NCBI RefSeq assembly: GCF_019679435.2 | Contig: NZ_CP139781.1 | Span: 3,038,001-3,102,000, forward strand | Direction of reading: 5' to 3' | Source of the DNA: Actomonas aquatica | GTDB lineage: Bacteria; Verrucomicrobiota; Verrucomicrobiia; Opitutales; Opitutaceae | DNA length: 64,000 nt | Shown here: positions 12,758 through 36,589 of the stretch, piece by piece | How the letters are laid out: every line of letters starts with the position of its first letter | How positions within the stretch are numbered: the first letter of the stretch is position 1 | Notes under the pieces: generated by a model | Told to the model about the DNA's origin: nothing | The model's input: the letters and a program-made list of their open reading frames with translations, nothing else | Database searches by the model: none | Program-made: the position numbers and the translations under genes

Positions 12758-12778
12758 CTGGTAACATATTATGATAAG
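12758..12778. promoter_or_regulatory. Operator candidate overlapping regulator start codon
   Basis: The sequence CTGGTAACATATTATGATAA is related to the palindrome at 11691-11711 and lies between the divergent DapA-like and regulator genes. The regulator's ATG (12771) is inside the site, which would give tight negative autoregulation if the regulator binds here. Confidence 0.5.
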
Positions 12779-15720: not shown

Positions 15721-15730
15721 GTGTATACAC
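15721..15730. promoter_or_regulatory. GTGTATACAC palindrome (FCD-GntR operator candidate)
   Basis: A perfect 10-bp palindrome, identical to the one upstream of the second TonB receptor (31295-31304). It is about 97 bp upstream of the TauE-like start. Confidence 0.55.
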
Positions 15731-15936
15731 AATAAGTCCACCATCTTCGCACCCGGTAAGACGAGCCGCTCCAGGCTACCGCTTGCCTGAAGTTGAAGAA
15801 TTTCGGCAAAAGCGTCCCGCCCATTGTCCGGAGCATGCTTTTTGCTAGGAAACCCACCGTTGTGGCCTCTGCTGTCGCCAGCGGATGCTTCCGCCAACTG
15901 GCTCGGCCAACTTAATTCGATTCACACTGGACCTTT

Positions 15937-15950
15937 TATACACGTGTATA
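15937..15950. promoter_or_regulatory. TATACACGTGTATA palindrome (FCD-GntR operator candidate)
   Basis: A perfect 14-bp palindrome about 73 bp upstream of the symporter ATG. It shares the GTGTATA half-site with sites at 15721, 31295 and 32137. Confidence 0.55.
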
Positions 15951-16022
15951 CTTTTATCCAAGCAGCCAGCACCCAAGGCCGTCGCCCTGCTCTGCTCATT
16001 TTTCGTCACCGCCTTTGATTCG

Positions 16023-17687
16023 ATGCCACGTCTGACCCGTTTTTCCCTCCTGTCCTTCATCGGTTTTACGCTGGCGCCCCTGCTTCAGGCCCAGTCTTCC
16101 GTGGCTACCGATGAGGTGCTGCCCGCGCTTCACACCGGCCTGCACTGGCTCGATTGGTGCATCATCGCTCTCTATCTGGGAGTCGTGCTGTGGTTGGGTG
16201 CCAAGTGCGCCAAAGGCGATTCGGGCACGGCGGAATACTTCATCGCGGCGAAGCGGCACATGAACCCGGTGCTGATCGGCATCTCCACCTTCGCCACGAT
16301 CCTGAGCACCGTCTCTTACCTCTCGAAGCCAGGCGAAATGGTGAACAAGGGTCCCACCATTCTGTTGGCCCTCATCATTTCGGCCCCGCTCACCTACTGG
16401 GTGGTGTCCCGATGGTTGATTCCTCAACTCATGCGCCTGCGTGTCACCAGTGCCTACGAATTACTGGAGGAGCGTCTGGGTTACGGCGTGCGCGTGCTCG
16501 GCGCCGTCATGTTTATTCTCCTGCGCCTGGTCTGGATGGGGCTGCTGGTCTACCTCGCCTCGCTCGCTCTCGTCATCATCATCGGGCTCGATGAGAAGTG
16601 GACTCCCCTCATCTCTGCTCTCACCGGCATCGTCGCAGTGGTCTACACCTCGATGGGCGGTCTGCGCACCGTGGTCATCACCGACCTGATTCAATTCTTC
16701 CTGCTACTGGGTGGCGCCCTCATCACCATCGCCATCGTTACGATCAAGCTCGGAGGGTTTTCGTGGTTCTCGCTGTCGTGGAATCCCAACTGGGACACGC
16801 AGCCGCTCTTCACCTGGGATCCGACGGTTCGAGTGTCACTCTTTGGCGCCGTGCTATCGGGCATGCTCTGGCAAATCGCCACGGCCGGCAGCGATCAGAC
16901 CGCAGTGCAACGCTACATGGCGACGGAGGACAAGAAGGCGGCCAGCCGCTCGTATTTGGTTTCAATGGTGGCCCTCGCCGGTGTCTCCACCGTGCTCGCC
17001 CTCCTCGGCATGTCCCTCCTGGCGTTCTTCACCGAGTATCCGGAGCTCCTGCAAGGCGGGCTCACCTTGTCCGCCGACGGCGACAAAATCTTCCCCTACT
17101 TCATCTCCCATTTCCTGCCGATCGGCATCACCGGTCTGGTCGTATCGGGCGCAATCGCCGCGGCCATGTCCAGCGTCGACTCCGGGGTAAACTCCATCAC
17201 GGCGGTGGTCATGACCGACTTTCTCGATCGCAACGGCAAGTCGTTCAAATCCGAGGCCCAGCACCTGCGCTTTTCCAAGTTTCTCGCTGCCGGAATCGGC
17301 GCGATCGTGATCGTGACGAGCCTGTTCGTGCAATACGTGCCGGGCAACTTCACCGCCATGACGAGCAAGACCGCCAACCTGCTCGTGACTCCGATTTTTT
17401 GTCTCTTCATCCTCGCGCTTTGGGTCCGCGGTGCGACGCCCCTCTCCGCCTTCCTAGGCTTTGCCTACGGGTTCGCCGCCTCCGTCCTCATAGCCTTCTG
17501 GGAACCCATTACCGGCCAGCCCCAAATCAGCTTTCAATGGGTTGGACTCGGCGCCTTGGTCGCCAACCTCGGGATCGCGCTGCCGCTCGCGAAATTTGGC
17601 CCTCGCCGCGAAGACACCCGCGCCACCCGCAACACCGCCATCGTTGGCTTGGTGATCCTCGCCGCCCTGCTGTTCTGGCTGCTCTGA
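16023..17687 (+). CDS. Sodium:solute symporter (SSS family)
   Basis: This protein of about 554 residues has an N-terminal hydrophobic segment and then about 13 predicted transmembrane helices. Family landmarks include SAYELLEERLGYGVR, VYTSMGGLRTVVITD and SGAIAAAMSSVDSGVNS, with the sodium-site region in the last. SSS proteins import sugars, sialic acid, carboxylates or similar solutes with Na+. The start at 16023 gives a sensible first segment; a longer upstream extension would overlap the palindromic operators. It is followed 26 bp later by the ceramidase-like gene, forming a plus-strand operon. The likely substrate is a monosaccharide or sugar acid released by the locus. Confidence 0.92.
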   Translation: MPRLTRFSLLSFIGFTLAPLLQAQSSVATDEVLPALHTGLHWLDWCIIALYLGVVLWLGAKCAKGDSGTAEYFIAAKRHMNPVLIGISTFATILSTVSYLSKPGEMVNKGPTILLALIISAPLTYWVVSRWLIPQLMRLRVTSAYELLEERLGYGVRVLGAVMFILLRLVWMGLLVYLASLALVIIIGLDEKWTPLISALTGIVAVVYTSMGGLRTVVITDLIQFFLLLGGALITIAIVTIKLGGFSWFSLSWNPNWDTQPLFTWDPTVRVSLFGAVLSGMLWQIATAGSDQTAVQRYMATEDKKAASRSYLVSMVALAGVSTVLALLGMSLLAFFTEYPELLQGGLTLSADGDKIFPYFISHFLPIGITGLVVSGAIAAAMSSVDSGVNSITAVVMTDFLDRNGKSFKSEAQHLRFSKFLAAGIGAIVIVTSLFVQYVPGNFTAMTSKTANLLVTPIFCLFILALWVRGATPLSAFLGFAYGFAASVLIAFWEPITGQPQISFQWVGLGALVANLGIALPLAKFGPRREDTRATRNTAIVGLVILAALLFWLL

Positions 17688-17713
17688 CCCGAAAACCCGC
17701 CCCCATCTGCGTC

Positions 17714-19171
17714 ATGTCCGATTTGTCCCTCCACCCACTGCGCGTCGCCGCCGCATCATTCTCCACCAAAATCGCAGCCGGTCTGCCCACCCGGGGCCGC
17801 ACCGGGGCCCGCGTCGAACGCGTCGTCTCCGACCTCATCACGACCGTGGCCTTGTTCGAGCAGGCTGACCGGAGAATCTGCCTCGTCGAAAGTCCGCTCG
17901 ACATTCGCACCTTCCCGTTCCGCCTGCTGCTCAAGCCGCGCTTGGCCGCAGTGTTCGGGATTCCGGAAGACCAGATCATCCTCTTCTGCGACCACAATCA
18001 TTGCGTGCCCTGTCTTTCGGAACGGCAGGCCAATGATTGGGAGGTTTCTTCCATCCCGCCGCTCGATGCCGACCCGCTCAACGCCCTCGGCGAGGAAGTG
18101 TTGGACGCCATCGTCACTGCCGCCACTCCGCTGCCGGACCGTCTGGAGCCTGCCACCGTTTCCTGGGGCACCGCTCAAGAGACCCGAGTGTCCTACAACC
18201 GCAAAGGCCACTGGCCCGACGGCTCCACCTACTTCATTCGCGAAAAAGAACGCCTGGACCTGGGCGAGGACTACATCGGCTTGATCGATCCCGATGCCGA
18301 TGTCGTGACATTTCACAATGACGCCGGCCAACCCTTGCTGGGGCTCTGCCGCTTTACGGCCCATCCCGTCACCTCCTATCATCCGGAACGCATGACCGCC
18401 ACCGGTGAGTGGAGTCAGTTCGCGGCTGATCACCTGCGCCGCGAGTTTGGCGGCGATACTCCGGTGGCCTTCCTGCAGGGCTGCGCCGGCAACATCAACT
18501 CACGCTATTTTCTCACCGGCGACATCGCCAAATCCGCCGAACTGGGTGACCTCCTCGGCGAATCGTTCCTGCAAGCCTACCGGAAACGCCAGCAGGTCGC
18601 CGTTCCGGAACTCGGCCTGGACCTCCTCGATGTCCAGGTCCCGCTCGCCGCCTTGCCGTCGGTGACCGATCTCGAAGCAGAGCTCGCCGAAATCGACGCC
18701 TTCATCGCCAATCCGCACCTCACCAACACCTACGGCGCCTACACCTGCGTAGGCCTTAATTTTCCCGAGGTGCTCAGCCCGCGCTACCGCGCCCAATTGG
18801 TGAAGGAGATCCGCGGGTGGTATGAATGGGCGCTCTCCATGCACCGGGAGAACCGCCTCCCCGAAATACCTCCCACCCTGCCCATCCGTTGCCCGTTGCT
18901 CCGTTTTGGCGACCTGGCACTGATCGGACTTCCCTTTGAGCCCTTTGTTGAAATCGGTGAGCACCTCAAAGCCGTCTCACCCTTCACCAAACTGTTGCCC
19001 TGCGGTTATGTGAACGAGAGCGAAGGCTACATCCCTCATGCGGATGGTGTCGGCGACCGCGAATACATGAGCAGCTTTTACCGCTATTCGCACTACAACC
19101 CGCCCTTCGCCGCCCCGGCCGGCGACGCCGTGACCGACGCCCTTCGGGCTTACGCCGAACGTCGGGCCTAA
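17714..19171 (+). CDS. Neutral ceramidase-like hydrolase without signal peptide
   Basis: This 485-residue protein is homologous to the exported paralog at 22620-24140. Shared features include YNRxGxxxDGSTYFxREExRxxLGEDxxGxIDP, FTAHPVTSYHPE and FLQGCAGNINSRY, the last matching the nucleophile region of neutral/alkaline ceramidases. The metal-binding region reads FCDHNHC. No signal peptide is visible. A longer open frame upstream is an out-of-frame shadow of the symporter, so the ATG at 17714 is used. True ceramidase activity is doubtful in this setting; the family probably includes amidases acting on glycan-derived compounds. Its stop overlaps the convergent ferritin-like gene by 4 bp. Confidence 0.75.
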   Translation: MSDLSLHPLRVAAASFSTKIAAGLPTRGRTGARVERVVSDLITTVALFEQADRRICLVESPLDIRTFPFRLLLKPRLAAVFGIPEDQIILFCDHNHCVPCLSERQANDWEVSSIPPLDADPLNALGEEVLDAIVTAATPLPDRLEPATVSWGTAQETRVSYNRKGHWPDGSTYFIREKERLDLGEDYIGLIDPDADVVTFHNDAGQPLLGLCRFTAHPVTSYHPERMTATGEWSQFAADHLRREFGGDTPVAFLQGCAGNINSRYFLTGDIAKSAELGDLLGESFLQAYRKRQQVAVPELGLDLLDVQVPLAALPSVTDLEAELAEIDAFIANPHLTNTYGAYTCVGLNFPEVLSPRYRAQLVKEIRGWYEWALSMHRENRLPEIPPTLPIRCPLLRFGDLALIGLPFEPFVEIGEHLKAVSPFTKLLPCGYVNESEGYIPHADGVGDREYMSSFYRYSHYNPPFAAPAGDAVTDALRAYAERRA

Positions 19172-20397
19172 CTCGCCCGCGCGGACGCCCGCGCCGCCGG
19201 TCGATAGGCCTCCGCCAGGACCGTTGCCCGCCAGTTACGCAGATCGACCTGAACTTGATCGTAGGAACGTGGTTCGCCCGTCTCTTCGATCATGACCGGG
19301 ATCCACTTGGTGCTATATCGCACGTGCTGCGTCTCGTCGGCGATGTCGTAACTCCACGCCATCGCACTCGTGGCATCTTTCTCCGCGACCGCCTCCTTGA
19401 GACCGGCGTGTTTGCCCGGAAAGGCATCAGCCTCCTGAGTGGTCAACGCCGCATAGCGATCGAGCGGCGTCAGCGTTTGACGCATGGCGTAAGCCTTGGT
19501 CGACAGGCCCGACGCTTCCACCGACACACCGAGCTCCGCCAGCTTGCGGGCCCCAAACAACGCGTGCCGGCATTCATCCCACATGTGCCGACTCGCATCG
19601 AAGAAGAACTCCCACGGCATGTCCGGCGCATCAAACAACAGCGCCGCACAGGAATCCGCCGCCTGCACTTCCTGGAGAAAATTCACCGCGATGTAGCGCG
19701 AACGTTCGGTGTAGTCTGCATCATCAGCCGGCGCTTCCGGCCCAAATTCCAGCAGCGTAAACCCAGCCGGAATTTCGGCATCCGGCAGCGGCAATCGCCC
19801 GATCCGCCGCCCGCCACGACAGACTTCGCCGGTCCGTCCCGCATGCGTGCTCAATACGACCACAAGATCCTCGAGGAGCGCGTCAACTTCGACGCCAAAC
19901 GCCTCACTCTCCGGACTTGGTTCCGCCGCACGCCACGCCGACGCCTGCTCGGCCAAGGCCCGGAGTTCATCGCGATCGGTCTCGAGCAGAGGTTGGCTGG
20001 GTTGGTCGTAGATCGTCGCGTTTTCCCGCAAGTATCCATCGATGGCAGCAGCCAAAGCAGACGGCACCGCCTGTAGCGCGGTGCGCACAAAAGCATCGTG
20101 ATCCGGGGCATGACAGAGCCGATCCAACAGGGTCCGCCCGGCACTCCAACTGGCCACATGTTTGGCCGGCCAAGACAACCCGAGCTCGCGGCCCCGTTGC
20201 CGCAGGTCCTGCACCCGTCGAAACTGTCGGAAAATGATGCCCGGCAGCGTCTGGCGAAGTTGCCAATCGGTGATTCCCGGCAAGAAGCCTGCCTGCAGGC
20301 GGGCCAGCTCCGTCTGGAAATCGGCCAGGTTTTTGATGAAAAGCCCGCGCACGCGCGGGTTTACTTCACGGGCGAGGGGGTCGGTGGGTCGGCTCAT
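19168..20397 (-). CDS. DUF455-like / ferritin-like domain protein
   Basis: The 409-residue protein has a C-terminal helical domain with WEFFFDASRHMWDECRHALFG, an E...DExxH-type diiron signature seen in ferritin-like DUF455 proteins. A helical N-terminal half (residues 1-200) has no recognisable motif. It overlaps the upstream propeller gene by 32 bp and is the last gene of a seven-gene minus-strand operon. Ferritin-like oxygenases in catabolic clusters may act on nitrogen- or carbon-containing groups, but nothing in the sequence defines a substrate. The start at 20397 is supported by coding character beginning there. Confidence 0.65.
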   Translation of the reverse strand: MSRPTDPLAREVNPRVRGLFIKNLADFQTELARLQAGFLPGITDWQLRQTLPGIIFRQFRRVQDLRQRGRELGLSWPAKHVASWSAGRTLLDRLCHAPDHDAFVRTALQAVPSALAAAIDGYLRENATIYDQPSQPLLETDRDELRALAEQASAWRAAEPSPESEAFGVEVDALLEDLVVVLSTHAGRTGEVCRGGRRIGRLPLPDAEIPAGFTLLEFGPEAPADDADYTERSRYIAVNFLQEVQAADSCAALLFDAPDMPWEFFFDASRHMWDECRHALFGARKLAELGVSVEASGLSTKAYAMRQTLTPLDRYAALTTQEADAFPGKHAGLKEAVAEKDATSAMAWSYDIADETQHVRYSTKWIPVMIEETGEPRSYDQVQVDLRNWRATVLAEAYRPAARASARAS

Positions 20398-21925
20398 GTT
20401 GAATGGTGTTGGGCGCAGAGTTTTGAGCCGCGTTGGCTTCTTCAGTCGCAAAAGCAAAGGCGAACAAATCGGCGTCTTGCAGTTCGATGCGCAATCGCAC
20501 CACTCGCCCTGCCAAAGCACTGAGATCGACCTCGCCCTGCCAATCGACCCAGCCCGCGATTTCGTCCCCCACCACCAGTCGGGAGTCCGCCAGCGCAAAT
20601 CCATCGATCGGCTCACCGGCTGCATCTTGCAGCTCAAACCGCAGACTGCCCGCCGCCGAAGTGGCGTAGTTGATCTCAAGGCGATTGCCGCTGAATCGAA
20701 TCGGACGGCTCAGCCATTCGCCAGTTTTGTAGCCGGCGTGCAACGAGGCGAAACCATCCGTGCGCAGCGTGTAGCGCGCCATGTGTTGATCGGGCTGACC
20801 GTAACGGCGCTGCACAAAAAACGACATCTCCCGCGGTCCGGTCGGAATGATGCCCAGCGCTGGATAGTTGTTGCGCGAAGTCCAGTTTTCCCAGCCCGGC
20901 CCCGGTCGCAAAAAGCTCTCCACAAAGGTCCGCTGGTAAGTCAGGTCCCCCCGGGTGGTCAGTAACACCCCATCGGATACGTCGCGGTAATAGTCGGGAT
21001 CGACGCCAAGCCGCGCGGCCATTCCATCGGTGACCACTTGCCGGCCTTCGACGAGGCGCCCGGCAATGCCGACGTAGAGGTGCGGCGCACGGAAGTAAGG
21101 CGTCGTTTGGTTGGTGTAGATCTGCTCGGGCGGAGCGGCATCACCGTCGGCATCAAGAAACGCCATCGGCCCCTCATCATGCCACGTCACAAAATCGAGA
21201 CTGGTGGCCCGGGACACCCAACGCACACGCCGCCCGTCCTCAAAATCACGGAAGCTTCGGTAATAGCAGACATACTTAGCCTCCGCTTCCGACCAGAAGA
21301 CCACGTTGAGCGAATCGTAACGATAATCGTCCGTGATCGGCATCATCGGCTCGCCCGCCATGAACGGCGTCCAGTTAACCCCGTCCGCGGAAACGAAACG
21401 TCGCAGACCACTCGTCTGGATTCCTCCGACCGCTTTCCAACGCTCCTCCGCCGGCGCCGCCGGATTGAGATCGTAAAACACATTCAGGTTGTGCGATGCC
21501 GGTGCATGCTCCCGCAGCACGATATTGTCCGCCGGCTTTGACCACGTAACCCCGTCGGTTGAAGTCGCATAAGCGGTCACATCGAGGCCTTCCGCCGCCC
21601 GCGACGGCGTGGGCAGCCCACGATAATAGGCGCGAAATCCCTCGCCGGGCACGGTCACGATACTCACGTAGCCGGCAAAGGCTCCTTCATGCGGTCGATC
21701 AAAGTTAAAGGCCCTTCCGGCCAAACGCGGCGTCTGTGCCCGCCACTCCACGTGCTCAGCTTTAGCAGTCAGAAAGTCGTCAACAAAGAGTTCCCGCCGC
21801 GTGCCCAAATCAATCACCTCTGCCGACGCGAACGTCCCCGCCAACGCACTTATGATCAGCCCGGCCTTCCGTCGCCATGAGCACCGCCGCTGTATCCACT
21901 TTAGCACCACATTGCCTCCGCTCAT
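20366..21925 (-). CDS. Predicted secreted GH32/43-like propeller protein, paralog 3
   Basis: About 519 residues when starting at the ATG (21925) that overlaps the stop of the acyltransferase gene (ATGA). The N-terminus has a hydrophobic segment (about 17-31) and DLGTRRELFVDDFLTAKAEH. The body has YATSTDGVTWSKP, YRYDSLNVVFWS and YFRAPHLYVGIAG; the C-terminal beta-sandwich has NYATSAAGSLRFELQDAAG. It is the most divergent in its first strands (EWRAQTPRLAGRAFN), suggesting a different ligand. Member of the seven-gene operon. Confidence 0.78.
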   Translation of the reverse strand: MSGGNVVLKWIQRRCSWRRKAGLIISALAGTFASAEVIDLGTRRELFVDDFLTAKAEHVEWRAQTPRLAGRAFNFDRPHEGAFAGYVSIVTVPGEGFRAYYRGLPTPSRAAEGLDVTAYATSTDGVTWSKPADNIVLREHAPASHNLNVFYDLNPAAPAEERWKAVGGIQTSGLRRFVSADGVNWTPFMAGEPMMPITDDYRYDSLNVVFWSEAEAKYVCYYRSFRDFEDGRRVRWVSRATSLDFVTWHDEGPMAFLDADGDAAPPEQIYTNQTTPYFRAPHLYVGIAGRLVEGRQVVTDGMAARLGVDPDYYRDVSDGVLLTTRGDLTYQRTFVESFLRPGPGWENWTSRNNYPALGIIPTGPREMSFFVQRRYGQPDQHMARYTLRTDGFASLHAGYKTGEWLSRPIRFSGNRLEINYATSAAGSLRFELQDAAGEPIDGFALADSRLVVGDEIAGWVDWQGEVDLSALAGRVVRLRIELQDADLFAFAFATEEANAAQNSAPNTIQHEPTHRPPRP

Positions 21926-22596
21926 GCCTCCGCCGAGGGGTCGAAGCCTTCGGGCCAGGGTTCGGGATTCGGACGCTGGTCCCACAGATCGGCGCCGCCA
22001 AAGATCTGGGCCGGGTCATTGCCGGCGCCAAATTCAGCCGGCAAGGGACGCACCTGCGCCGGACAACCGAGGGCCAGGGAGTTGGGCGGCACATCCTTCA
22101 TCACCACCGCACCGGCGGCGATGAAGGCATTGTCCCCGATGGTGACGCCGGGACCAATCGTCACGCCCCCGCCGATCACGACATGGTTACCGATCATCGG
22201 CCCCTGCACGCCGGCTTTGCGCATGGGCAGCTTGGCATTGAGCAGGTTGGTCCCCGGGCCGATGAACACCATGTTGCCGATGGTCGTCGTGCTGGGGATA
22301 TAGACATGCGCCATGATCTTCACTCCGGTGCCAATGGTGACGCGCCCTTCCAAGGTGGAGCCATGCAGGATCACCACCCGATCGCCAATGGTGCATTCCG
22401 CGCGGATCGTGGCGTTGTGACCGCAGCTAAAATGGTCCCCGATCACCGTGTCGGCATAGACCACCGCGCCACTGTGAAAGCGCGCCCGTCGCCCGATGCG
22501 AGCGGGTTCACGACAGCCGGGGTAACGATAACCGAGCTGCACTTGGGGAGCGACCTCACTGTCGGCTCCCAGTTCGTAAAAAGCTTCGGAAGACAT
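21922..22596 (-). CDS. Left-handed beta-helix (hexapeptide-repeat) acyltransferase
   Basis: This 224-residue protein consists largely of hexapeptide repeats (IGDHFSCGHNATIRAECTIG, ITIGTG-type turns, IGGGVTIGPGVTIGDN) from about residue 40 to 190, the fold of sugar O/N-acetyltransferases and related enzymes. AAGAVVMKDVPPNSLALGCPA is a classic acetyltransferase C-terminal coil. Start at 22596; upstream in-frame TTG is less likely. Gap of 23 bp to the ceramidase-like gene upstream and ATGA overlap with the propeller gene downstream. Possible role: acetylation of a released sugar to detoxify or mark it, inferred. Confidence 0.85.
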   Translation of the reverse strand: MSSEAFYELGADSEVAPQVQLGYRYPGCREPARIGRRARFHSGAVVYADTVIGDHFSCGHNATIRAECTIGDRVVILHGSTLEGRVTIGTGVKIMAHVYIPSTTTIGNMVFIGPGTNLLNAKLPMRKAGVQGPMIGNHVVIGGGVTIGPGVTIGDNAFIAAGAVVMKDVPPNSLALGCPAQVRPLPAEFGAGNDPAQIFGGADLWDQRPNPEPWPEGFDPSAEA

Positions 22597-22619
22597 GACG
22601 GGACGCTCAGCCAAAACCG

Positions 22620-24140
22620 TTACCGATGCAAACTGCGCAGCGCGGCCACCGCATCGTCCGCCGCAGCATCTGCGCCCGGTTCCGCGTAAGGTGGTCGTCC
22701 GTGCAGATAGCGATAAAACCCGGCCTGATATTCCAGGTCACCCACCGCCGTGGCATCGGGAATGTAGCCTTGCGCGCCTTCCACGTAAGCCGCGGTCAAC
22801 ACGAGTGCCTGCGGTGCTTCCTGACGGATCTTAAAACCCGTGCGCACGAATGCCTCAAAGGGCAGACCCACGATCCCCACCCCGCCCAGCTGTGCGGCGA
22901 CGATGCCCATCTCCACTTCGCGTGGCAGCTCATCGGCCGTGCCGGCTTGGCGTTGTTCCAACGCCCATGCATACCAACGCCGCACCGGAGCGACCAGCTT
23001 TGAACGATAGATCGGGCTCAGCGCACGAGGAAAGTTGAGTCCGACGCAGGACAGAGTGTCCTCGTCGCCGGCTTCCGCCCGCACAACAAAAGCATCAATC
23101 TCAGCGAGAGATGCCTGCAGGCTTTCGATCGTCGGCAGCGGAGCCAACGGCACGGTGGCAGTCGCCCGCTTCCAGACAAAATCACTGTCTGTCGCCGGGC
23201 GGGCGGCATCGGCCGCCTTGATGAAGGTTTCGCTCAAATACGCCGCCATTTGATGCGCCTGCTCCATCGTGCCGGTGAGCATAAACTTCGAATTAATGTC
23301 GCCCGCGCAGCCTTGCAGAAACGCCACCGGAGCGCCGCCGAGATGCTCCGAAAGCGCAGTGGTCGCGAGCTGCGGCCACTGGCCAAAGGCCATCGGATCC
23401 TCGGGGTTGTAGGCCGTCACCGGGTGACCGGTGAACAGTGCCAGTGCCGCCACCGCCGCACCATCTTTGCCGCGCAGGAGCACGACCGGAGCCAGCGGGT
23501 CGATCTGCCCCACAAAATCCTCCCCCAACAACGCCCGGTCTTCCTCGCGCATGAAATAGGTGCTGCCGTCTTCACGCTGACCGCGGCGATTGTAGGTCAT
23601 GCGGTGTTCTTCCGCTACGCCCCAGGCGACCGTCACCGGCACGAGCTTCGCCCGCAGGCCACTCGCACTGCGGCGCAATCCATCGATCATCGCCTGACCA
23701 ATGTCATTGGCCTCGCCCGTCGGATCCCCATCAGGTCCCGGCGCAATGTGCATCGCCGGCACCGAATGATCGTGGGACGACGCGAGCACGATCTCAGCCG
23801 GCGTCAAATCAAGCGCATCACTCAGAATAGCCTTGGCGGCGTTCTGCAGCGGCCGACGCGAATCAAACGGAAACGGCGTTGCAAACAACGCCATGCGCTG
23901 GTCGCCCTGCTCAATCAGGATGATCGTGCTTTTGAGATCACTCTCCACTCGGTTGATCTTCATCCCCGTCGCGGTGAAGTCGGCGGGCACGCCGACCTCG
24001 GGTTCCAGAGCAAACGTTACGGCAGCAGCCTGCAGCGACGGAGACTTGGCTTGGGCAAGTGAAGTCATGGCAGTAAAAGCGAAGAGAACGGTCAGGCTAC
24101 CGACGAGGCGGCGCCACGTTGAGCGGGAAGGGACACACAT
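22620..24140 (-). CDS. Exported neutral ceramidase-like hydrolase
   Basis: The 506-residue protein has a signal peptide (hydrophobic residues about 13-31, ALA-like cleavage near AQAKS). It has the ceramidase-family N-terminal domain: VLASSHDHSVPA with metal-binding His residues, YNRRGQREDGSTYFMRE, FTGHPVTAYNPE and FLQGCAGDINSKFMLTG. It is a paralog of the cytoplasmic-looking gene at 17714. Its stop lies 23 bp before the acyltransferase start and its ATG is 5 bp after the propeller stop, in the same operon. An exported amidase or esterase removing N-acyl or similar groups is possible; the substrate is unproven. Confidence 0.8.
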   Translation of the reverse strand: MCVPSRSTWRRLVGSLTVLFAFTAMTSLAQAKSPSLQAAAVTFALEPEVGVPADFTATGMKINRVESDLKSTIILIEQGDQRMALFATPFPFDSRRPLQNAAKAILSDALDLTPAEIVLASSHDHSVPAMHIAPGPDGDPTGEANDIGQAMIDGLRRSASGLRAKLVPVTVAWGVAEEHRMTYNRRGQREDGSTYFMREEDRALLGEDFVGQIDPLAPVVLLRGKDGAAVAALALFTGHPVTAYNPEDPMAFGQWPQLATTALSEHLGGAPVAFLQGCAGDINSKFMLTGTMEQAHQMAAYLSETFIKAADAARPATDSDFVWKRATATVPLAPLPTIESLQASLAEIDAFVVRAEAGDEDTLSCVGLNFPRALSPIYRSKLVAPVRRWYAWALEQRQAGTADELPREVEMGIVAAQLGGVGIVGLPFEAFVRTGFKIRQEAPQALVLTAAYVEGAQGYIPDATAVGDLEYQAGFYRYLHGRPPYAEPGADAAADDAVAALRSLHR

Positions 24141-24145
24141 CGGAG

Positions 24146-25660
24146 TCAGCGGTGAAAGCGATAGGCGTAGAGATCGGCATCCTGCAGGGTAAACCGCAGG
24201 CGGACTGGCTGCCCGGCGAATTCTGCAACGTCATCGCGACCGACCCAGGTGACGCTGCGATCGATATCGTCGCCAATGAGTTCCTCGCTCGTGGCCAGCG
24301 TTTCACCATAAATATCCACCAACTCCACCGTCACCCCACCGGCGGCGGAGGTGGCAAAATTGAGGTCCAGGTTTCCCCCTGCAAAGGTGATCGGTTTGGT
24401 GAGCAGGGTGCCGCCTTCGTAGCCACCGTGCGCAGCGCTGAAACCATCCGTTCGCACCACGTGACGACGCAGGAAACAACTCGGCATCATGTAGTGAGTC
24501 ACAGCGTAGAATGACATTTCGCCATCTCCGGTCGGCACCACACCGAGCGTCGGCGAGTTGTTGCGCGCATGCCACGCGTAGGGATCACGTCCCGGACGCA
24601 GGAAGGACTCCATGAAGGTGCGATCATAACCCAATCCGCCGCGCGAGGTCATGAAGACCGCATCGGACACCCCGTGAGCCTGCGACGGGTCGACGCCCCA
24701 CTCGATCTGTTGTTCCGGCGAATAAGCCTGACGGTCCGGCCAAAAGCGGAAGGGCAAGGCGACCAGCAGATGCGGCGCCCGGAAATAGGGATGCGTGCCA
24801 TTGGTGTAGAGGTGTTCCAAAGGCGCGTCGCCGAAATGCATGCGCTCGGGTTCCGACCAATTGGTGAAGTCCTTGGACACCGAACGGCTCACCGTGCGAA
24901 TGCCCGCATAAGTCGGCTTGCCGGGCACCCCACCCTCGCTCCAAGTGCGCAGGTAGATCGCGTATTGCTCCTCGGCCGGCACCCAGATGAGCACGTTTTG
25001 TGAATCCAGCGCGTAGCCCGGCAGGATGGGTTGCGGCGCCGCAAGCTTCCAGTGGATGCCATCGGCCGAAACGTAACGGTAGAGTCCGCCGCTCACGCTG
25101 GCCTGGGCCGGGTCGGGCACCAAGTCACTGTTGTCGTGAAACACGCCACCCACGCCCTTGTAACGCTCCGCCGCGGGCACTCCGGGACGGTCATCGAGGA
25201 AGGGCGAGAAGTTGTGGGAAACCCGTTTGGCGAGATCGGGCGCCAGGATGACATTGGTCTTACGCCCCTTGTATTCGAAGATATCGAGTTCCGGCTTCAC
25301 CCAGTTCACCCCATCAGTGCTTTCCGCATAACACGTGACCTCGAGCGGGGTGCCATTCTCGCGCTCCGGCAACATGCCCCGGTAATAAAGCCGGTAGAGG
25401 TCCCCGTCTTTAATGACCGTGGTGTAGTTGACCGCGTGTTCCCACGGTTCATCAAACTGCATCACCGCTTCGGCTTCGCGGGTGCGAGCCAACTGCAGAC
25501 GCACGCCGTTCATCGAATCAATGAGCGTGCGATCCGCGAAGAGTTCACGGCGTTCGCCGATCGGCGTGGCGTCGGCAGCAAGGGAGAGGTGGGCTTGGGC
25601 AAGCAGGAGAGACAAAGCAGAGAGGATGAGCTGGCGGGAACGAGGGAGGAAGGAACGCAT
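24146..25660 (-). CDS. Predicted secreted GH32/43-like propeller protein, paralog 4
   Basis: The 504-residue protein starts at 25660, giving a clear signal peptide (LILSALSLLLAQAHLSLA). PIGERRELFADRTLIDSMNGV begins the mature domain; YTTVIKDGDLYRLYYRG, YAESTDGVNWVKPELDIFEY and RTFMESFLRPGRDPYAWHARN follow. The C-terminal beta-sandwich ends in LYAYRFHR. It is closest to the neighbour at 25678 (shared MNGV/MDGV, KTNVILAPD and HNFSP regions), indicating tandem duplication. Spacing of 5 bp to the ceramidase-like gene downstream. Confidence 0.8.
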   Translation of the reverse strand: MRSFLPRSRQLILSALSLLLAQAHLSLAADATPIGERRELFADRTLIDSMNGVRLQLARTREAEAVMQFDEPWEHAVNYTTVIKDGDLYRLYYRGMLPERENGTPLEVTCYAESTDGVNWVKPELDIFEYKGRKTNVILAPDLAKRVSHNFSPFLDDRPGVPAAERYKGVGGVFHDNSDLVPDPAQASVSGGLYRYVSADGIHWKLAAPQPILPGYALDSQNVLIWVPAEEQYAIYLRTWSEGGVPGKPTYAGIRTVSRSVSKDFTNWSEPERMHFGDAPLEHLYTNGTHPYFRAPHLLVALPFRFWPDRQAYSPEQQIEWGVDPSQAHGVSDAVFMTSRGGLGYDRTFMESFLRPGRDPYAWHARNNSPTLGVVPTGDGEMSFYAVTHYMMPSCFLRRHVVRTDGFSAAHGGYEGGTLLTKPITFAGGNLDLNFATSAAGGVTVELVDIYGETLATSEELIGDDIDRSVTWVGRDDVAEFAGQPVRLRFTLQDADLYAYRFHR

Positions 25661-25677
25661 GAGGATCGAGGGGGGTC

Positions 25678-27207
25678 TTAGGGTTGAAATTGAAACGCGT
25701 AGAGGTCGGCGTCTTGCAGCGTGAAACGCAGTCGCACTGGCTGGCCGGATTGGGCGGCGACCACGGTCCCGTTGCTCCACGTGACGATCCGTTCCAGGTC
25801 GTCACCAATGAGCTCATCGCTGCGGGCCAACACTATGCCGTCGGCGTCCAGAAGTTCCACCTGCACGAACCCGGCCGCAGAGGTGGCAAAATTGAGATTC
25901 AACCGGTCTCCGGTGTAGCGAAACGGTTTCGTCAGCAAACTGCCCGGAGCGTAGTCTGCGCGCACGGCGGCGAAACCATCCGGACGCAGGGTGTAGCGCC
26001 GCAGCTGCGCGCTGGGCATCGTGTAGTGCGTGGTGGTGTAGAACGAAATCGTGTCGCCACCATCGGTCGGAACCACCCCCACCGCCGGCGCATTGTTGCG
26101 CGCATGCCAGTTGAACAGATCGCGACCGGGGCGAATGAAGGACTGCATAAACGTCCGATCGTAACGGGTGCCGCCACGCGAGGTCATGAGCACGGCGTCT
26201 GATACGCCCTTGAGCTGACCGGGATGCACCCCGGCTTCGACGAACACCTCCTCCGCGTAAGCCCGTCGCTCCGGCCAGAAACGAAACGGCAGAGCAATCA
26301 GCAGATGAGGAGCGCGAAAATAGGGCGTGGTCGCGTTGGTGTAGATGTGCTCGGGCGGCGCGTCTCCGTAACTCATGGGCTCCGGCTTCGACCAGTGGAT
26401 AAAATCCCGCGACGTCGCCCGGCTCACCGTCCGGTAACCGGCGAAACCGGGATTGTCGGGCGTGCCTCCTTCCGTCCACGTGCGCAGATAAACCGCGTAA
26501 ACCTCTTCCTCCGGCAACCACGTGAGCACATTGAGCGAGTCGAGCGCATAACCATCAAAGAGCGCCGGCCCTGGCAATACTTCCCAGTGTATTCCATCGG
26601 CGGATACGAGACGCTGCAGGCCACCGGTCGCGACCACTTCGTCGCCGCTGCCGTGCTCAAAACGACCGGTCTCCACGCTGAGCACCGGCCGGTTGCCCCC
26701 GCGTCCGCCCACCGCTTTGTAACGCTGCGAGGCGGGCACCCCGGGGCGGTCATCCAGCATCGGCGAAAAGTTGTGAGAAATCCGACGGGCGTCGGGCGGC
26801 AGGATGATATTGGTCTTCCTCCCCGCGTAGTCGTGGATGTTCAGCTCCGGTTTCCTCCAGTGAATGCCATCCGTGCTCTCGGCGTAGCAGGTGACCTCGA
26901 TGTCGGCCGGGTCTGTCAGGCCCGCCGCCGGCACACCGCCGCGGTAATACAGCCGGTAGACGCCGCCATCCTTGATTACCGTGGTGTAAACCACCGCCTG
27001 ATCCCACGGATCCTCGAAGATGAGCACCGGGCCCTCGTCGCGCGGACGGGCCAATTCCATGCGCACCCCATCCATCGATTCGACCAAGGCCCGGTCTACA
27101 AATAGTTCCCGTCGCGAGCCGATATCCGGCCAAGTCTCAGCCACCGCCGGAGCGGTCACCGTAGCGACGATCAGGAGCGAGAAACAAAGCGAGCGAAGGG
27201 AGTTCAT
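25678..27207 (-). CDS. Predicted secreted GH32/43-like propeller protein, paralog 5
   Basis: 509 residues with a signal peptide (about 1-23) and WPDIGSRRELFVDRALVESMDGV. Blade motifs parallel paralog 4 (YTTVIKDGGVYRLYYRGG, YAESTDGIHWRKPELNIHDY, RTFMQSFIRPGRDLFNWHARN). The C-terminus ends DADLYAFQFQP. Its ATG overlaps the TGA of the upstream paralog (ATGA). A probable tandem duplicate of the downstream gene that has diverged in an insertion around residues 170-200. Confidence 0.8.
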   Translation of the reverse strand: MNSLRSLCFSLLIVATVTAPAVAETWPDIGSRRELFVDRALVESMDGVRMELARPRDEGPVLIFEDPWDQAVVYTTVIKDGGVYRLYYRGGVPAAGLTDPADIEVTCYAESTDGIHWRKPELNIHDYAGRKTNIILPPDARRISHNFSPMLDDRPGVPASQRYKAVGGRGGNRPVLSVETGRFEHGSGDEVVATGGLQRLVSADGIHWEVLPGPALFDGYALDSLNVLTWLPEEEVYAVYLRTWTEGGTPDNPGFAGYRTVSRATSRDFIHWSKPEPMSYGDAPPEHIYTNATTPYFRAPHLLIALPFRFWPERRAYAEEVFVEAGVHPGQLKGVSDAVLMTSRGGTRYDRTFMQSFIRPGRDLFNWHARNNAPAVGVVPTDGGDTISFYTTTHYTMPSAQLRRYTLRPDGFAAVRADYAPGSLLTKPFRYTGDRLNLNFATSAAGFVQVELLDADGIVLARSDELIGDDLERIVTWSNGTVVAAQSGQPVRLRFTLQDADLYAFQFQP

Positions 27208-28802
27208 GAATCAGAAGCGACCGGGGTGAAGCGGAACGAGTAGACGTCTGCATCCATCACCTCGATACGCAGACGTATGGGCGTGGCCGTGTAGGCGTTG
27301 AGCGAGGTGCGTCCGCGCCAGCTCACCACGCCGTCGATGCGATCGCCAATCAACGGATCACAGTCTTCCAGCGCGAACCCCGGCAACGCTTCGCCGGCGG
27401 CGTTTTGTAACTCGACTCGCACCTGCCCTGCCCCGCTGGTCGAGAAGTTGAGCTGCAGCACGTCACCGTCGAAGGTGAACAGTTCGGTCAATACTTCGCC
27501 GCCTTCATAAGCCCCGTTTACGGAGGCAAAACCGTCGGTGCGCAGCGACATGCGACGAATGTGATTGGTCGGCTGCAAGTGATGGCGGGTCAGATAAAAG
27601 GAAAGTTCACTCGGTCCGGTTTCCAACAAACCGCCACTGAGCGGTGCGTAGCTGTTGCGTGAACTCCAGTTGCCCAGTTCCGTGCCGGGACGCAGAAACG
27701 CCTCCATGAAAGGACGGTCCAAGTGCGTGGAACCGGGTTTGCTGAAGAGCAAAACAAGGTCGTTCGCATCGCTCGCAAAGGTGTAGGACCGAACCCGAGT
27801 ATTACCCGGAAACTTGCGGATCTGCAGCGCTTGCTCCTCCTCCAGGGTGAGCGCGCGGCGGCCCGGATTGAAGCGATTGGCCAGTGTGATGTAGAGCGAC
27901 GGATTGCGCGGATACGGCACCGTGCAGGGCTCGTAGATGTGCTCACGCGGAGTATCCCCGTATTCCATCGCCTCCGGTTCCGTCCAACTGTGGAGATCCG
28001 ACGACACGGAGCGGAACACCGACCTCACCCCTTTGCGGTCAATCATCCAATCGTGCAGGGAGCGTTCGTGGGTGGGCGCATCGATATCCCACCAGCGAAA
28101 GTAGCCGACAAATTGCTGTTCCACTTCGGACCAAAATACGCTGCCGCCATCAAAAGCGTTGGGCCAATCACTGACGAGGTCGGCCGCGTAACCGAGCTCA
28201 TGCCACACCGCCCCATCGGCCGATCCGAGCATGAACGCACGCAGACCCTTGCCTGCGCCCCCCGCCCGTCGTTCGCCGTCGCGCATGTCGATGGCTTTGA
28301 TGCGTTCGTCGGCCGGCACATCCGGTCGCGGATCGAGAAACGTAAACATCCAGGTAGTGGAAGCACCGTCGGCGAAGCCTGTGATGTTGTTGGCCGTGCT
28401 ACCGTCGAACTCCACCAGTCCGAGGTTTGGTTTCTCCCACACCAATCCATCTTCACTCGTCGCCAGACAAAGATAGACGCTGGAGGCGGACTCGTCGCCC
28501 GTGCCTTCATTGATCCCGCGATAAAGCATGTGGTATTTGCCCTCGTGCTCAAAAATCGAGCTGATGAAGAGCGCGCTGCCCTCCCACGGCTCGTCCGCGC
28601 GCAAAACGATTTCGCGCTCGACCGGTTGGCCCTGTTGCAACCGCGCCGCGCCCGAAATCTCACCGATGATGGTGCGGTCTGCAAACAGCTGCAACTGATC
28701 GCCGAGTTCGATCGGCGCGATCGGGGTTTCGGCGGCGCTGCCGGACGCACTCCCGCCCAGGGTCAGCGCAAATGAAATGAGTAACGAAGAGAGCCGGGTC
28801 AT
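27204..28802 (-). CDS. Predicted secreted GH32/43-like propeller protein, paralog 6
   Basis: This 532-residue protein, the first gene of the seven-gene operon, has a signal peptide (LLISFALTLGGSASGSA) and PIELGDQLQLFADRTIIGEISG, a less conserved form of the family opening. Blade motifs (YLCLATSEDGLVWEKP, FDGGSVFWSE, HLDRPFMEAFLRPGTELGNWSSRN) and the C-terminal sandwich (SGAGQVRVELQNAAG) are kept. A second ATG two codons earlier (28808) is equally possible as start. It lies downstream of the TonB receptor terminator, in the same orientation. Confidence 0.78.
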   Translation of the reverse strand: MTRLSSLLISFALTLGGSASGSAAETPIAPIELGDQLQLFADRTIIGEISGAARLQQGQPVEREIVLRADEPWEGSALFISSIFEHEGKYHMLYRGINEGTGDESASSVYLCLATSEDGLVWEKPNLGLVEFDGSTANNITGFADGASTTWMFTFLDPRPDVPADERIKAIDMRDGERRAGGAGKGLRAFMLGSADGAVWHELGYAADLVSDWPNAFDGGSVFWSEVEQQFVGYFRWWDIDAPTHERSLHDWMIDRKGVRSVFRSVSSDLHSWTEPEAMEYGDTPREHIYEPCTVPYPRNPSLYITLANRFNPGRRALTLEEEQALQIRKFPGNTRVRSYTFASDANDLVLLFSKPGSTHLDRPFMEAFLRPGTELGNWSSRNSYAPLSGGLLETGPSELSFYLTRHHLQPTNHIRRMSLRTDGFASVNGAYEGGEVLTELFTFDGDVLQLNFSTSGAGQVRVELQNAAGEALPGFALEDCDPLIGDRIDGVVSWRGRTSLNAYTATPIRLRIEVMDADVYSFRFTPVASDS

Positions 28803-28945
28803 GGGCATAAGGGATGAAACGAGGGGACAGGCGAAACGTTCGCGGCCGAACCGAAGATTGCTTGCATCGATCTCCTGCAAGGGTGGGCCGGCAAATCGGC
28901 GCCGCGGCTTGCAGCCCGCAAAATAGAAAGGGGAATTCTAACGGG

Positions 28946-28976
28946 AAAGGGGGCGATGGTGAACTGCCATCGCCCC
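28946..28976 (-). terminator. Rho-independent terminator behind second TonB receptor
   Basis: Minus-strand stem GGGGCGATGG against CCATCGCCCC with a short loop followed by a T-rich run (CTTTCCC). It lies about 80 bp after the receptor's stop, parallel to the arrangement at 5199-5235. Confidence 0.75.
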
Positions 28977-29055
28977 AGCTTAACTACTACGACTACCATA
29001 CCAACGGAGGGGACGGGCGCTTACTTCCCGCCCCCACCGAAAAAACACGTCCGGC

Positions 29056-31227
29056 TTACCAGGAGTAACCGACGGAAAGCCGCACGGTGCGCGGCTGCGA
29101 GGTCTGCACCAGACCGCTCAGCGCCACCGCCACGAGGTAATACTCGTCGGTCAGGTTCTCGGCATTGAGCTGGGCGGACCAGCTTTCACCCCAATCGTAG
29201 CGGGCGAAGGCTGAGTAAGTGGTCGGGAAATCGAGCCAATAGCCGCCATTGTATTTCTCCGTCTGATCGTAGGCGCCACCACCGAACATCAGGCCCTTGA
29301 GCGGGCCATCCGTGAAGGAGATCTTACCCATCAGACTGTAAACGTCCTCGGGCGCGTCTACCGTCGCACGGCCCGTGCCTGCCTGTTCGGTCTCGGCGTG
29401 ATAGTAGGTGGCGATGAGGTCAGCGTGAGCGCTTTCGCTGAAGTTGAAACGCAGGCCAATGTCCGCTTCCCAACCCTCGGATGAGTCCTGCTCCGACTGG
29501 ATGTAAATCTGCTCACCACGAGAGTTGAAGCCCACGCCCTGCGTGCGGACGTTAGTCAGCTCCATGTCGAACAGAGCCGCCGTCATATTGATGCTGACGG
29601 TATCAGAGAGATCACGGCTCCACTTAACTCCAAACTCCGTGAGGTTGCCCTCCTGATCGCGGTAAGGCTGCGGCACTTCTTCAGTGGTGAAGCCCGACTG
29701 CGGAATGAGATTCTGCGCTTCGGTGAAGTAGAGGGAAAGGCCGTCCACCGGCTTGTAGACTACACCATACTTGTAGGTGCGCACCCAGGGGTTGTCATTG
29801 ATCGAGGTTGAATCTGTAGCGAGATTTTCACTACGACTGTAGGTGTCGAACCAACGGAAACCACCGACGAGAATCAGCTTATCGTCGAAGAAGTAGGCAT
29901 TGTCCTGAATGTAGAGCGAAGCGTTGGTGCTTTGGCCCCGGCTGCGATTCGTCCGCGGCGTGTTTGGATCAAGGCTGTCGTCATTGGAGAAGTCCGGGTT
30001 ACGGACGTCGATCGGGTCCGCCACGACCACTACACTGGAACCATGGCTGCGGCCGTGGGACACGTCACCGCCCATGCTGATGTCATGACGCATGAAGTCG
30101 GTCTCCCAATTGTAGAGGAAGTCCAACTGCCCCAAATGGCTCGAGCTGTAGCTCTCATACGGGATATATTGACGCTGCAGCGTGACGTTATCCGCGCCAA
30201 TCGCCGAGCCACGCAGGATGAGGCGCTCATCTTCATGGTCGTTGTAACTGTAGCGAATCCGCACGTTGGCGTTGTCCGTGAGGCGAGTCATGAGATCGAC
30301 CGTGCCGAACCACTCCTCGTCATCCCACTTGGCATCCTCACCCCGACCCACCGAAAAGTCGCGGGTCGAATACGGGTTGATTATCGGATTCTGCGCCGTG
30401 GAACTGGCATCGAGGAAGTCGGCCCAATAAAAGTAACCATTGTCGACGCTGTTATAGAGGCGAAAATTGATCGTCGTGCGCTGATCCTCACCAAAGTGGA
30501 ACATGAGACCGGTGCCGAAGAAGCGGTCGTCATCTGCCCAGATATCCTTGGTGGTGTCGCCGCTGGTCGCGCCGAGTGTCACCCGGTAAAGTGCAGTGAA
30601 GTCGTCGGACTTCACGATCGGACCGGAGCTGTTCACTTCGAGACGCATGTAGCTATCCTCCCCCAACGACGCCTTGATCTCGCCCTCCGGATTCAAAGTC
30701 GGTTCGCGGGAAACGAAGTTAATCACACCACCGATGTAACCGTTTTGACCGAGCAACATACCGGCCGGGCCCTTGATGACTTCGATTCGCTCGACGTCAT
30801 ACATCGGGTTACGCTTGTAGAGCGCCTTCAAGACACCGTCGCGCATGGCCTGGGAGGCACGGAAACCGCGAATGTTGGTATCGTCGTTGATCGTTTGGTT
30901 TTGCGTCACGCCGGACACACCAAATTTGAGCGCCGAGCTGGCTTCAAAAGCACCGAGGTCGGTCAAGAGTTCGTGGTTTAGTACCGTGAGGGCCGCCGGG
31001 ATGTCGGCAATTTCCGTCACTGAACGACTGCCCACCAAACTGGCTTGGGTCGCATAACCCTCAGCCTCTTCGTCATGCACCACGAACGGCGACATCACGA
31101 TGGCTTCTTCGGAATGGGGCTCTGCCTCAGCGGCTTGCTGGGCAATGGTCGGCGAAAGCGCCGCCGCAAAAAACGGCGCCGCAAAAGCCAGACGCCGGAA
31201 GTGATAGGGTGAAGAGTTCTTGTTCAT
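29056..31227 (-). CDS. TonB-dependent receptor, second copy
   Basis: The 723-residue receptor starts at 31227 and has a signal peptide (about 1-27, ending in IAQ). AIVMSPFVVHDEEAEGY is the TonB-box region. The plug (about residues 60-165) has NIRGFRASQAMRDG and VEVIKGPAGMLLGQNGYIGG; the barrel ends in SVGYSW. It is a paralog of the receptor at 5259. A perfect GTGTATACAC palindrome lies about 68 bp upstream of the start and matches sites near the GntR/FCD gene and the transporter genes, so the three are probably co-regulated. The likely substrate is an oligosaccharide processed by the adjacent propeller operon. Confidence 0.93.
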   Translation of the reverse strand: MNKNSSPYHFRRLAFAAPFFAAALSPTIAQQAAEAEPHSEEAIVMSPFVVHDEEAEGYATQASLVGSRSVTEIADIPAALTVLNHELLTDLGAFEASSALKFGVSGVTQNQTINDDTNIRGFRASQAMRDGVLKALYKRNPMYDVERIEVIKGPAGMLLGQNGYIGGVINFVSREPTLNPEGEIKASLGEDSYMRLEVNSSGPIVKSDDFTALYRVTLGATSGDTTKDIWADDDRFFGTGLMFHFGEDQRTTINFRLYNSVDNGYFYWADFLDASSTAQNPIINPYSTRDFSVGRGEDAKWDDEEWFGTVDLMTRLTDNANVRIRYSYNDHEDERLILRGSAIGADNVTLQRQYIPYESYSSSHLGQLDFLYNWETDFMRHDISMGGDVSHGRSHGSSVVVVADPIDVRNPDFSNDDSLDPNTPRTNRSRGQSTNASLYIQDNAYFFDDKLILVGGFRWFDTYSRSENLATDSTSINDNPWVRTYKYGVVYKPVDGLSLYFTEAQNLIPQSGFTTEEVPQPYRDQEGNLTEFGVKWSRDLSDTVSINMTAALFDMELTNVRTQGVGFNSRGEQIYIQSEQDSSEGWEADIGLRFNFSESAHADLIATYYHAETEQAGTGRATVDAPEDVYSLMGKISFTDGPLKGLMFGGGAYDQTEKYNGGYWLDFPTTYSAFARYDWGESWSAQLNAENLTDEYYLVAVALSGLVQTSQPRTVRLSVGYSW

Positions 31228-31294
31228 CAATTGAGCTTGGGAGGTTCGTGGGGTAGTGAGCTTGAACAATGCCAAGTATCCTCGTGTATGTTCC

Positions 31295-31304
31295 GTGTAT
31301 ACAC
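31295..31304. promoter_or_regulatory. GTGTATACAC palindrome upstream of TonB receptor
   Basis: A perfect 10-bp palindrome identical to the one at 15721-15730, preceded by a degenerate second GTGTATG half-site (31284-31290). Probable operator of the adjacent GntR/FCD regulator. Confidence 0.6.
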
Positions 31305-31375
31305 TTTACAAGCCTAAGTGCACAAAATCGCCCACAACGGGCAAATCTAGTCATCCGGCCAGCGCAAAACTGCAC

Positions 31376-32125
31376 TCAGGTCGTGTAGAGCAATTCCTCT
31401 TCAGATAGCTCCGGGCCGCGCGTGCGCGCCGAGGCTCGCGCCATTAGGCGCACATGGTGATCTACCATTTCCCGCAGGTGCTCCTCCATCTCGGCTTCCG
31501 CCTCCTGCACCGCCCGACGCTTGATCGCGTCAAAAATCTTTTCATGACTGGCCAAAACCGCCCGTCGACGCTCCCCCTGCTCATCCTCCGGCAACGGCTC
31601 CTGCCCCGATGGCTTGTCCGAGACAACTCGGTTAATTAAGTGCAAGCGAAGGATTTCCCGCTTCATGAGCTCATTTTGGGCCGCAGTCATGATCGCCACA
31701 TGGAAGCGCACGTCCTCTCGCACCAAGGCCGCAAAAACCTGGTCACTGTGCCCTTCTGTGACGATCTGCTCCGTAAGTTGACGCATGCGCTCCAAGGGCA
31801 GCAGGATTTCCTGCAGATCAAAACTCGAGTGATGGCGTGCCGCCAGTCCCGCCGCATAACTCTCCAAGGCTAAACGCATCCCACAGAGTTCCTGGAACTC
31901 CTTGAGTTCCATCTTCTTAACACTAGCACCCAACCGCGCTTCGATCGTCACCAGCCCATCCGCCTCAAGCTGCCGGAGTGCGTCCCGCACCGGAGTGCGA
32001 CTCACCCCGATCTCATCCGACAAAGCCTTGGTCATCAAGGGATGAGCCGGCGGAAACTCTCCGCTCAGGATCCGCTTCCGGATGTAATCATAGGCAATAT
32101 CGGAATTGACACTCTTGGTTTGCAC
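31376..32125 (-). CDS. GntR-family regulator with FCD domain
   Basis: About 249 residues starting at a GTG (32125). A winged-helix domain (about 5-70; SDEIGVSRTPVRDALRQLEADG) is followed by an FCD all-helical sensor (about 80-225; VRFHVAIMTAAQNEL, ASHEKIFDAIKRRAVQEAEAEMEEHL) with the His/Asp residues that usually bind a metal and a carboxylate ligand. No ATG is available near the domain start; longer upstream starts would run through the GTGTATAC site 12 bp away and are less likely. It is divergent from the Gfo/Idh-HpaI operon. FCD regulators typically respond to sugar acids. Confidence 0.85.
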   Translation of the reverse strand: MQTKSVNSDIAYDYIRKRILSGEFPPAHPLMTKALSDEIGVSRTPVRDALRQLEADGLVTIEARLGASVKKMELKEFQELCGMRLALESYAAGLAARHHSSFDLQEILLPLERMRQLTEQIVTEGHSDQVFAALVREDVRFHVAIMTAAQNELMKREILRLHLINRVVSDKPSGQEPLPEDEQGERRRAVLASHEKIFDAIKRRAVQEAEAEMEEHLREMVDHHVRLMARASARTRGPELSEEELLYTT

Positions 32126-32136
32126 GATGGATACCT

Positions 32137-32144
32137 GTGTATAC
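32137..32144. promoter_or_regulatory. GTGTATAC half-site at regulator start
   Basis: GTGTATAC lies about 12 bp before the GntR/FCD start codon, in the divergent region shared with the dehydrogenase operon starting at 32223. It points to autoregulation plus control of that operon. Confidence 0.5.
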
Positions 32145-32222
32145 TTTTTTAATCTATGGCAAACTCGTTTATCCCAGCGGATGAACGACTCGCCTCGTTT
32201 CTGAAAATTCGACCACCCCCTC

Positions 32223-36414: not shown

Positions 36415-36481
36415 TGGATCCTCTACTTAGCACAGGTCCTCTCAGCCCCTTTTCTGCCGGTCCCCGACGTCCTCAGCGATA

Positions 36482-36589
36482 GACGTCATTGTCAGTTTCA
36501 TTGTCACTTTGAGGCGCCCCGAGAAACCAAAAGCCCCGTAACTCATTCGAGTTACAGGGCTTCCGAAAAGTGGCGTCCCCACGGGGATT
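36482..36589 (-). repeat. att-like direct repeat, copy A
   Basis: On the minus strand it contains the core AATCCCCGTGGGGACGCCAC, then a terminator-like hairpin (36530-36562), then GACAATGAAACTGACAATGA, which encodes the SDNETDNDV tail seen at the C-terminus of many phage integrases. It matches copy B at 36767-36906 in core and tail. Confidence 0.5.

Follow-up and report, generated by a model that had tools for sequence, protein, structure and literature searches.

A predicted GTATAC operator of an FCD-type GntR regulator ahead of uptake and catabolic genes in Actomonas aquatica

Introduction

In the stretch of Actomonas aquatica DNA analysed here (contig NZ_CP139781.1, positions 3,038,001 to 3,102,000; 64,000 nucleotides, referred to throughout as the window), a short palindrome recurs in front of genes for two transporters, a TonB-dependent receptor and a putative catabolic operon, and one of its copies lies beside the gene of a GntR-type transcription factor. 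This arrangement raises the question of whether a single regulator reads these sites and thereby links the uptake of a substrate to its breakdown. Two bodies of work bear on the answer. In the survey of FadR-subfamily regulons by Suvorova et al. (2015, PMC4494728), the operator is described as a GT-N2-AC palindrome, two divergent operons mostly share one site between them, and an extra, weaker GntR half-box lies 7-12 nt from the centre; the taxon table of that survey, in the part considered here, lists no Verrucomicrobiota. Structural detail is available for Atu1419 of Agrobacterium fabrum, a VanR-group FCD repressor crystallised on ATGTATACAT (PDB 6z74 and related entries), in which Arg45 reads the G, alteration of that G abolishes binding, and the regulator's own gene has a site between its -35 and -10 elements (PMC7797058).

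Within the lineage itself, the use of sulfated methyl-pentoses by Verrucomicrobiota has been published, with an AraD-like aldolase and microcompartments, unlike the locus described here (PMC8857213). Among the matches listed for titles and abstracts pairing GntR with the lineage or the motif, there is no account of an FCD regulon in this lineage, which does not prove its absence from the literature. Here, we describe a comparative sequence analysis of the palindrome, of the candidate regulator and of its predicted targets.

Results

The palindrome in the window and in the genome

A first-pass annotation had placed the palindrome at 15721, 15937, 31295 and 32137, upstream of the TauE permease, the symporter, the second TonB receptor (TonB2), and the regulator gene with its divergent operon. 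We found GTGTATAC at 15721, 15944, 31295 and 32137, the second of these being the right part of TATACACGTGTATA (15937-15950), and all four copies are intergenic and less than 100 bp from a gene start, in agreement with that annotation (Table 1). The core shared by the sites is GTATAC, which in relatives appears chiefly as TGTATACA; the copies at 15944 and 32137 read GTGTATACTT, both without the last A of TGTATACA, and TATACACGTGTATA is best read as this core next to an additional half-box. The GFO1 coding sequence contains a fifth and weaker match, TGTATACC at 32585.

Table 1. Genes and predicted operator sites of the locus (window coordinates; site-to-start distances are measured from the core GTATAC)
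Feature	Position	Strand	Remark
GntR-LacI protein	12771-13874		about 1.8 kb from the TauE and symporter sites
DHDPS-family enzyme	13958..14872	-	Pfam/NCBIfam
TauE/SafE-family permease	14890..15624	-	start by gene caller
Predicted operator	15721..15730	.	GTGTATACAC before TauE, 99 bp from TauE start
Predicted operator	15937..15951	.	core GTATAC (15946-15951) with adjoining candidate half-box; 77 bp from symporter start
Sodium:solute symporter	16023..17687	+	start by gene caller
TonB-dependent receptor TonB2	29056..31227	-	start by gene caller
Predicted operator	31295..31304	.	GTGTATACAC before TonB2, 70 bp from TonB2 start
GntR/FCD regulator	31376..32125	-	249 aa, GTG start at 32125; Pfam GntR + FCD; start by ortholog alignment
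Predicted operator	32137..32144	.	common to the regulator (14 bp) and the divergent GFO1 operon (84 bp)
GFO1, GFO/IDH/MocA oxidoreductase	32223..33230	+	Pfam/NCBIfam
GFO2, GFO/IDH/MocA-like oxidoreductase	33223..34200	+	Pfam/NCBIfam
HpcH/HpaI-family aldolase	34197..35003	+	Pfam
SDR oxidoreductase	34996..35778	+	Pfam/NCBIfam

The window holds six strand matches to GTGTATAC against 0.33 expected, a number reached in none of 100 shuffles. The genome, one contig of 6,109,182 bases, holds 16 strand matches at 13 distinct places, four of them in the window. The first-pass annotation had named a motif common genome-wide as the result that would refute its proposal, and this is not what was found. With the nine other places as the background, the Poisson chance of at least four GTGTATAC places in 16.4 kb is about 1.4e-8, for an interval chosen post hoc. 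Genome-wide, the decamer GTGTATACAC occurs at 15721 and 31295 only, and TGTATACA occurs at five places; in the window, TATACACGTGTATA is unique even when up to two mismatches are allowed.

The shorter TGTATAC has 46 places in the genome (51 strand matches) and is intergenic at four of its five places in the window, the fifth being the one in GFO1, versus 6 of 41 elsewhere (Fisher p 0.006); the intergenic and coding calls come from our own codon-usage gene caller, trained on the window genes. All 41 places outside the window (35 coding, 6 intergenic) were inspected as possible further targets. In two cases a called gene starts within the next 300 bp, for a KAP NTPase in one and for a response regulator in the other, and neither gene looks related. 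Elsewhere in the genome (3300000-3311000; L118), an open frame of more than 2900 aa has three TGTATAC copies in its coding sequence. A promoter scan of 19000-36500 returned two promoter-like matches versus 3.7 expected, none of them at the sites.

The candidate regulator

The regulator matches the Pfam GntR (57.4 bits) and FCD (60.3 bits) models, both above cut-off, and has the N-terminal GntR winged helix and C-terminal FCD domain of the FCD type of the GntR superfamily. It is the only FCD-family match found in the genome, which leaves no rival of the FCD type for the site; the genome also encodes GntR proteins from other subfamilies, such as the GntR-LacI protein of Table 1. Residues S42, R43, T44 and R47 are invariant in 30 aligned sequences and correspond to the DNA-contacting Ser44, Arg45, Thr46 and Arg49 of Atu1419, while the Arg31 contact of that protein is replaced by P29, so that four of the five side-chain contacts described are kept. 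Likewise invariant in 30 sequences are H142, H194 and H216, and D138 is invariant in a set of 17; by these three histidines the protein would have a metal-type FCD domain like that of Atu1419, and their invariance makes a metal-assisted carboxylate pocket likely.

A homolog at E<=0.001 was found in 98 of 200 same-family genomes and a close one in 39, namely the 38 used for the symporter and TauE surveys below and one in which it occurs as fragments (G082). The three closest matches among named genomes belong to Verrucomicrobia/Opitutia. Two genomes (G123 and G194) have 11 and 12 regulator matches at E<=0.001, which suggests an expansion of FCD regulators.

The predicted operator in the promoter of the regulator gene

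Of the 45 strongest places in relatives, 41 were fetched with up to 20 kb of surrounding sequence, and one of these (L139) carries two copies of the regulator. In 30 of 42 copies, the window's included, GTATAC begins 16-26 bp ahead of the start codon, which leaves a gap of 10-20 bp; so short a gap hints at a leaderless regulator mRNA. The 12 copies without GTATAC at the usual place comprise seven with a one-letter variant in the searched stretch (at -16 to -21 in five) and five with none; in two of the 12, GTATAC occurs farther upstream, at -69 and -83. Exact TGTATACA is found within 250 bp upstream of 22 of the 42, and at the conserved places its sequence has the palindromic form N-GT-N-AC-N. 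Aligned, the regulator promoters read TTG-N7-TGTATACA-N3-GYAT, with the GYAT box starting 7-8 nt from the palindrome centre; the window's own site (AAGTATACACAGGTAT, minus strand) fits this consensus in part only.

Three genomes with several regulator copies also have the core in this position: it is present in three of the five copies fetched from G123, with TGTATGCA in its stead in one more (L139, L157, L158 and L168 together), in one of two from G140, and in two of three from G162, the third having TGCATACA. Among more distant FCD homologs (L034-L110, the three closest loci L031-L033 being set aside), TGTATACA occurs within 250 bp upstream in 10 of 77, including a verrucomicrobial fragment that is 65% identical (L061); the motif is common to this class of regulator.

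The extended motif TGTATACANNNGYAT was found in 30 of the 200 genomes, which comprise 24 of the 39 that have a close ortholog and 6 of the 161 that do not, and its reversed control in five; since some of those promoters served to derive the motif, this comparison is partly circular. Among extended-motif places fetched separately, L221 and L227 are each followed by a GFO1 operon, with TonB genes nearby, and L235 by a broken regulator copy; no target was recognised at others, for example L222-L224 and L228-L232, and TGTATACANNNGYAT has no match in the A. aquatica genome.

Conserved predicted targets: the GFO1 operon and the TonB receptor

Exact TGTATACA lies within 250 bp upstream of 20 of 30 GFO1 genes and 7 of 17 TonB genes. 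At the same distance it was found before none of the GFO2 (0/27), propeller (0/26), symporter-like (0/9) and DHDPS (0/9) genes, and before one each of the HpaI (1/25) and SDR (1/51) genes; the symporter-like set includes the window gene, whose site is without the last A of TGTATACA. These counts omit rows whose alignment starts past residue 90, which among the TonB rows concerns a second piece in L131 and one gene in L136; for the latter, about 370 bp separate a TGTATACA from the end of the alignment.

With up to one mismatch allowed, TGTATACA is present in all 24 divergent regulator/GFO1 gaps, the window's included, and in the 100 bp upstream of all 13 TonB genes within 2.5 kb of a regulator, TonB2 included. 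By comparison, 63 control palindromes averaged 1.27 for the gaps and 0.52 for the TonB genes, the best scoring 13 of 24 (GTATATAC, which resembles the core) and 8 of 13, respectively. The four TonB genes farther off have no exact site, and one of them (L131) has a one-mismatch site. In four loci (L145, L159, L161 and L164) the regulator and GFO1 are both present and do not form a divergent pair; the core before GFO1 is kept in all of these except L161. Taken together, the comparisons support a conserved, self-regulated core regulon, predicted to comprise the regulator, the GFO1-GFO2-HpaI-SDR operon and the TonB receptor. In six loci (L135, L141, L146, L149, L161 and L170) a gene related to a DUF455-like protein of the window (19168-20397) lies between GFO1 and GFO2.

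The symporter and TauE sites

A survey of the 38 genomes with a regulator ortholog yielded 27 other symporter loci, one of them truncated and without upstream sequence (L189), and the motif was found in a single one (L178, at -392). Two of the 38 genomes, A. aquatica being one, yielded a TauE homolog at E<=1e-20. The two sites, which are strong in A. aquatica and 223 bp apart between the divergent genes, look like lineage-specific additions, and since they are not conserved, this part of the predicted regulon rests on this one genome; both are nevertheless likely members. The 17-bp gap between the DHDPS and TauE genes suggests that the two are probably co-transcribed.

Clues to the substrate and other features of the window

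The models nearest to the HpaI-family aldolase in NCBIfam are 2-keto-3-deoxy acid aldolases, every one under its cut-off. Six related proteins of about 500 aa without a Pfam match are encoded in the window, four at 20366-28880 and two at 1966-5237 (family spans 1966-5237, 20366-21925 and 24146-28808). One of the propeller proteins was modelled with a mean pLDDT of 83.1, and the best match to the model was a 1,2-beta-oligomannan phosphorylase (Z 24.0, rmsd 3.2 over 278 residues). The modelled propeller thus resembles five-bladed glycosidases and phosphorylases in fold only, a likeness that names no substrate; the resemblance is to propellers of the GH43/GH130/GH32 type. Two further proteins without a Pfam match, 40% identical to each other, are encoded at 17714-19171 and 22620-24140 and may be ceramidase-like. 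A sequence search of the PDB with a propeller and with the second of this pair (22620-24140) gave chance-level matches only.

An inverted repeat with 10-bp arms (28950-28959 with 28967-28976) was seen by eye in the interval that separates TonB2 from the propeller genes (28808 down to 19168); it is a possible terminator or attenuator, and it is absent from the list produced by a terminator scan. Two transposase genes (46573-48171 and 50118-51716) are probably copies of one insertion element, because they are of equal length and have the same Pfam scores.

Discussion

We propose GTATAC as the operator to which the FCD regulator responds, with TGTATACA as its optimal form. A dimer of the regulator would bind GTATAC and, from one shared site, repress both its own gene and the divergent GFO1-GFO2-HpaI-SDR operon, while further sites would serve to repress TonB2, the symporter, TauE and DHDPS. 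The regulator would be released by an acidic catabolite bound at the metal site of the FCD domain, probably a sugar acid of the 2-keto-3-deoxy type from the pathway itself, and uptake and breakdown would then start at the same time; it is the HpaI-family aldolase that points to such an acid as the inducer. Binding, repression, the inducer and operon membership are all inferred from sequence, and on this footing we consider the proposal as a whole to have a high probability. The regulon it predicts is probably real because the core arrangement recurs in related species. The single regulon of uptake and catabolism put forward in the first-pass annotation is thus upheld by conservation for the regulator, the GFO1 operon and TonB2, and for the symporter and TauE depends on A. 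aquatica.

The comparison with Atu1419 gives a precedent for an operator of known FCD type. As described for that protein, the predicted operator is a palindrome with a ATGTATACAT core placed in the regulator's own promoter, here as the GTATAC found before most regulator copies. Unlike here, the targets described for Atu1419 belong to hydroxycinnamate degradation and not to a TonB/GFO/HpaI set. The Atu1419 group is described as forming a tetramer able to bridge two palindromes; the present locus has a pair of sites between TauE and the symporter. The GT-N2-AC palindrome, the site shared by divergent genes and the extra half-box are likewise as in the FadR-subfamily regulons surveyed, except that the site here is close to the regulator start, and not near the middle of the gap or slightly toward the structural operon as that survey describes.

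The same regulon could be controlled by the FCD protein as an activator that requires its ligand to bind. Some FCD proteins act in this way, CitO binding in the presence of citrate and inducing its targets (PMC4746285), and sites 70-99 bp upstream of the structural genes could suit activation; in the regulator's own promoter, the core is so close to the start codon in most copies that a bound protein is likelier to block polymerase, and we regard activation as unlikely. It is also rather improbable that, with the core regulon real, the TauE and symporter sites belong to another regulator such as the nearby GntR-LacI protein. Such an assignment would accommodate their lack of conservation and the ACGT centre at 15937-15950, a centre known of AraR-type operators. 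Against it, the TauE-side decamer is identical to the TonB2 site, its only other copy in the genome, and TATACACGTGTATA is not repeated within the window when up to two mismatches are allowed; at three mismatches there are two further copies, beside the TonB2 and regulator sites, and none before the GntR-LacI gene.

It is very improbable that the palindromes arose by chance or are promoter elements with no regulator of their own. The core does overlap a promoter-like spacing upstream of the regulator, but the rarity of GTGTATAC and GTGTATACAC in the genome, the conservation relative to the control palindromes and the co-occurrence of motif and regulator across genomes argue against it.

Repression by the FCD regulator from GTATAC sites is thus the reading we favour, and with it we propose an operator and a regulon for glycan uptake in an Opitutia-related family of Verrucomicrobiota. 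One sensor would tie a TonB receptor, a symporter and a catabolic operon together, with a 2-keto-3-deoxy acid as the suggested signal. More speculatively, the FCD regulator, the GFO1-GFO2-HpaI-SDR operon and the TonB receptor might form a repeated control cassette in this verrucomicrobial family. Paralogous regulators within one genome, of which G123, G140 and G162 have several copies each, might share one operator code, and one intracellular acid intermediate could then switch on several glycan-uptake loci simultaneously. If this is true, an operator common to the paralogs might allow co-induction across loci.
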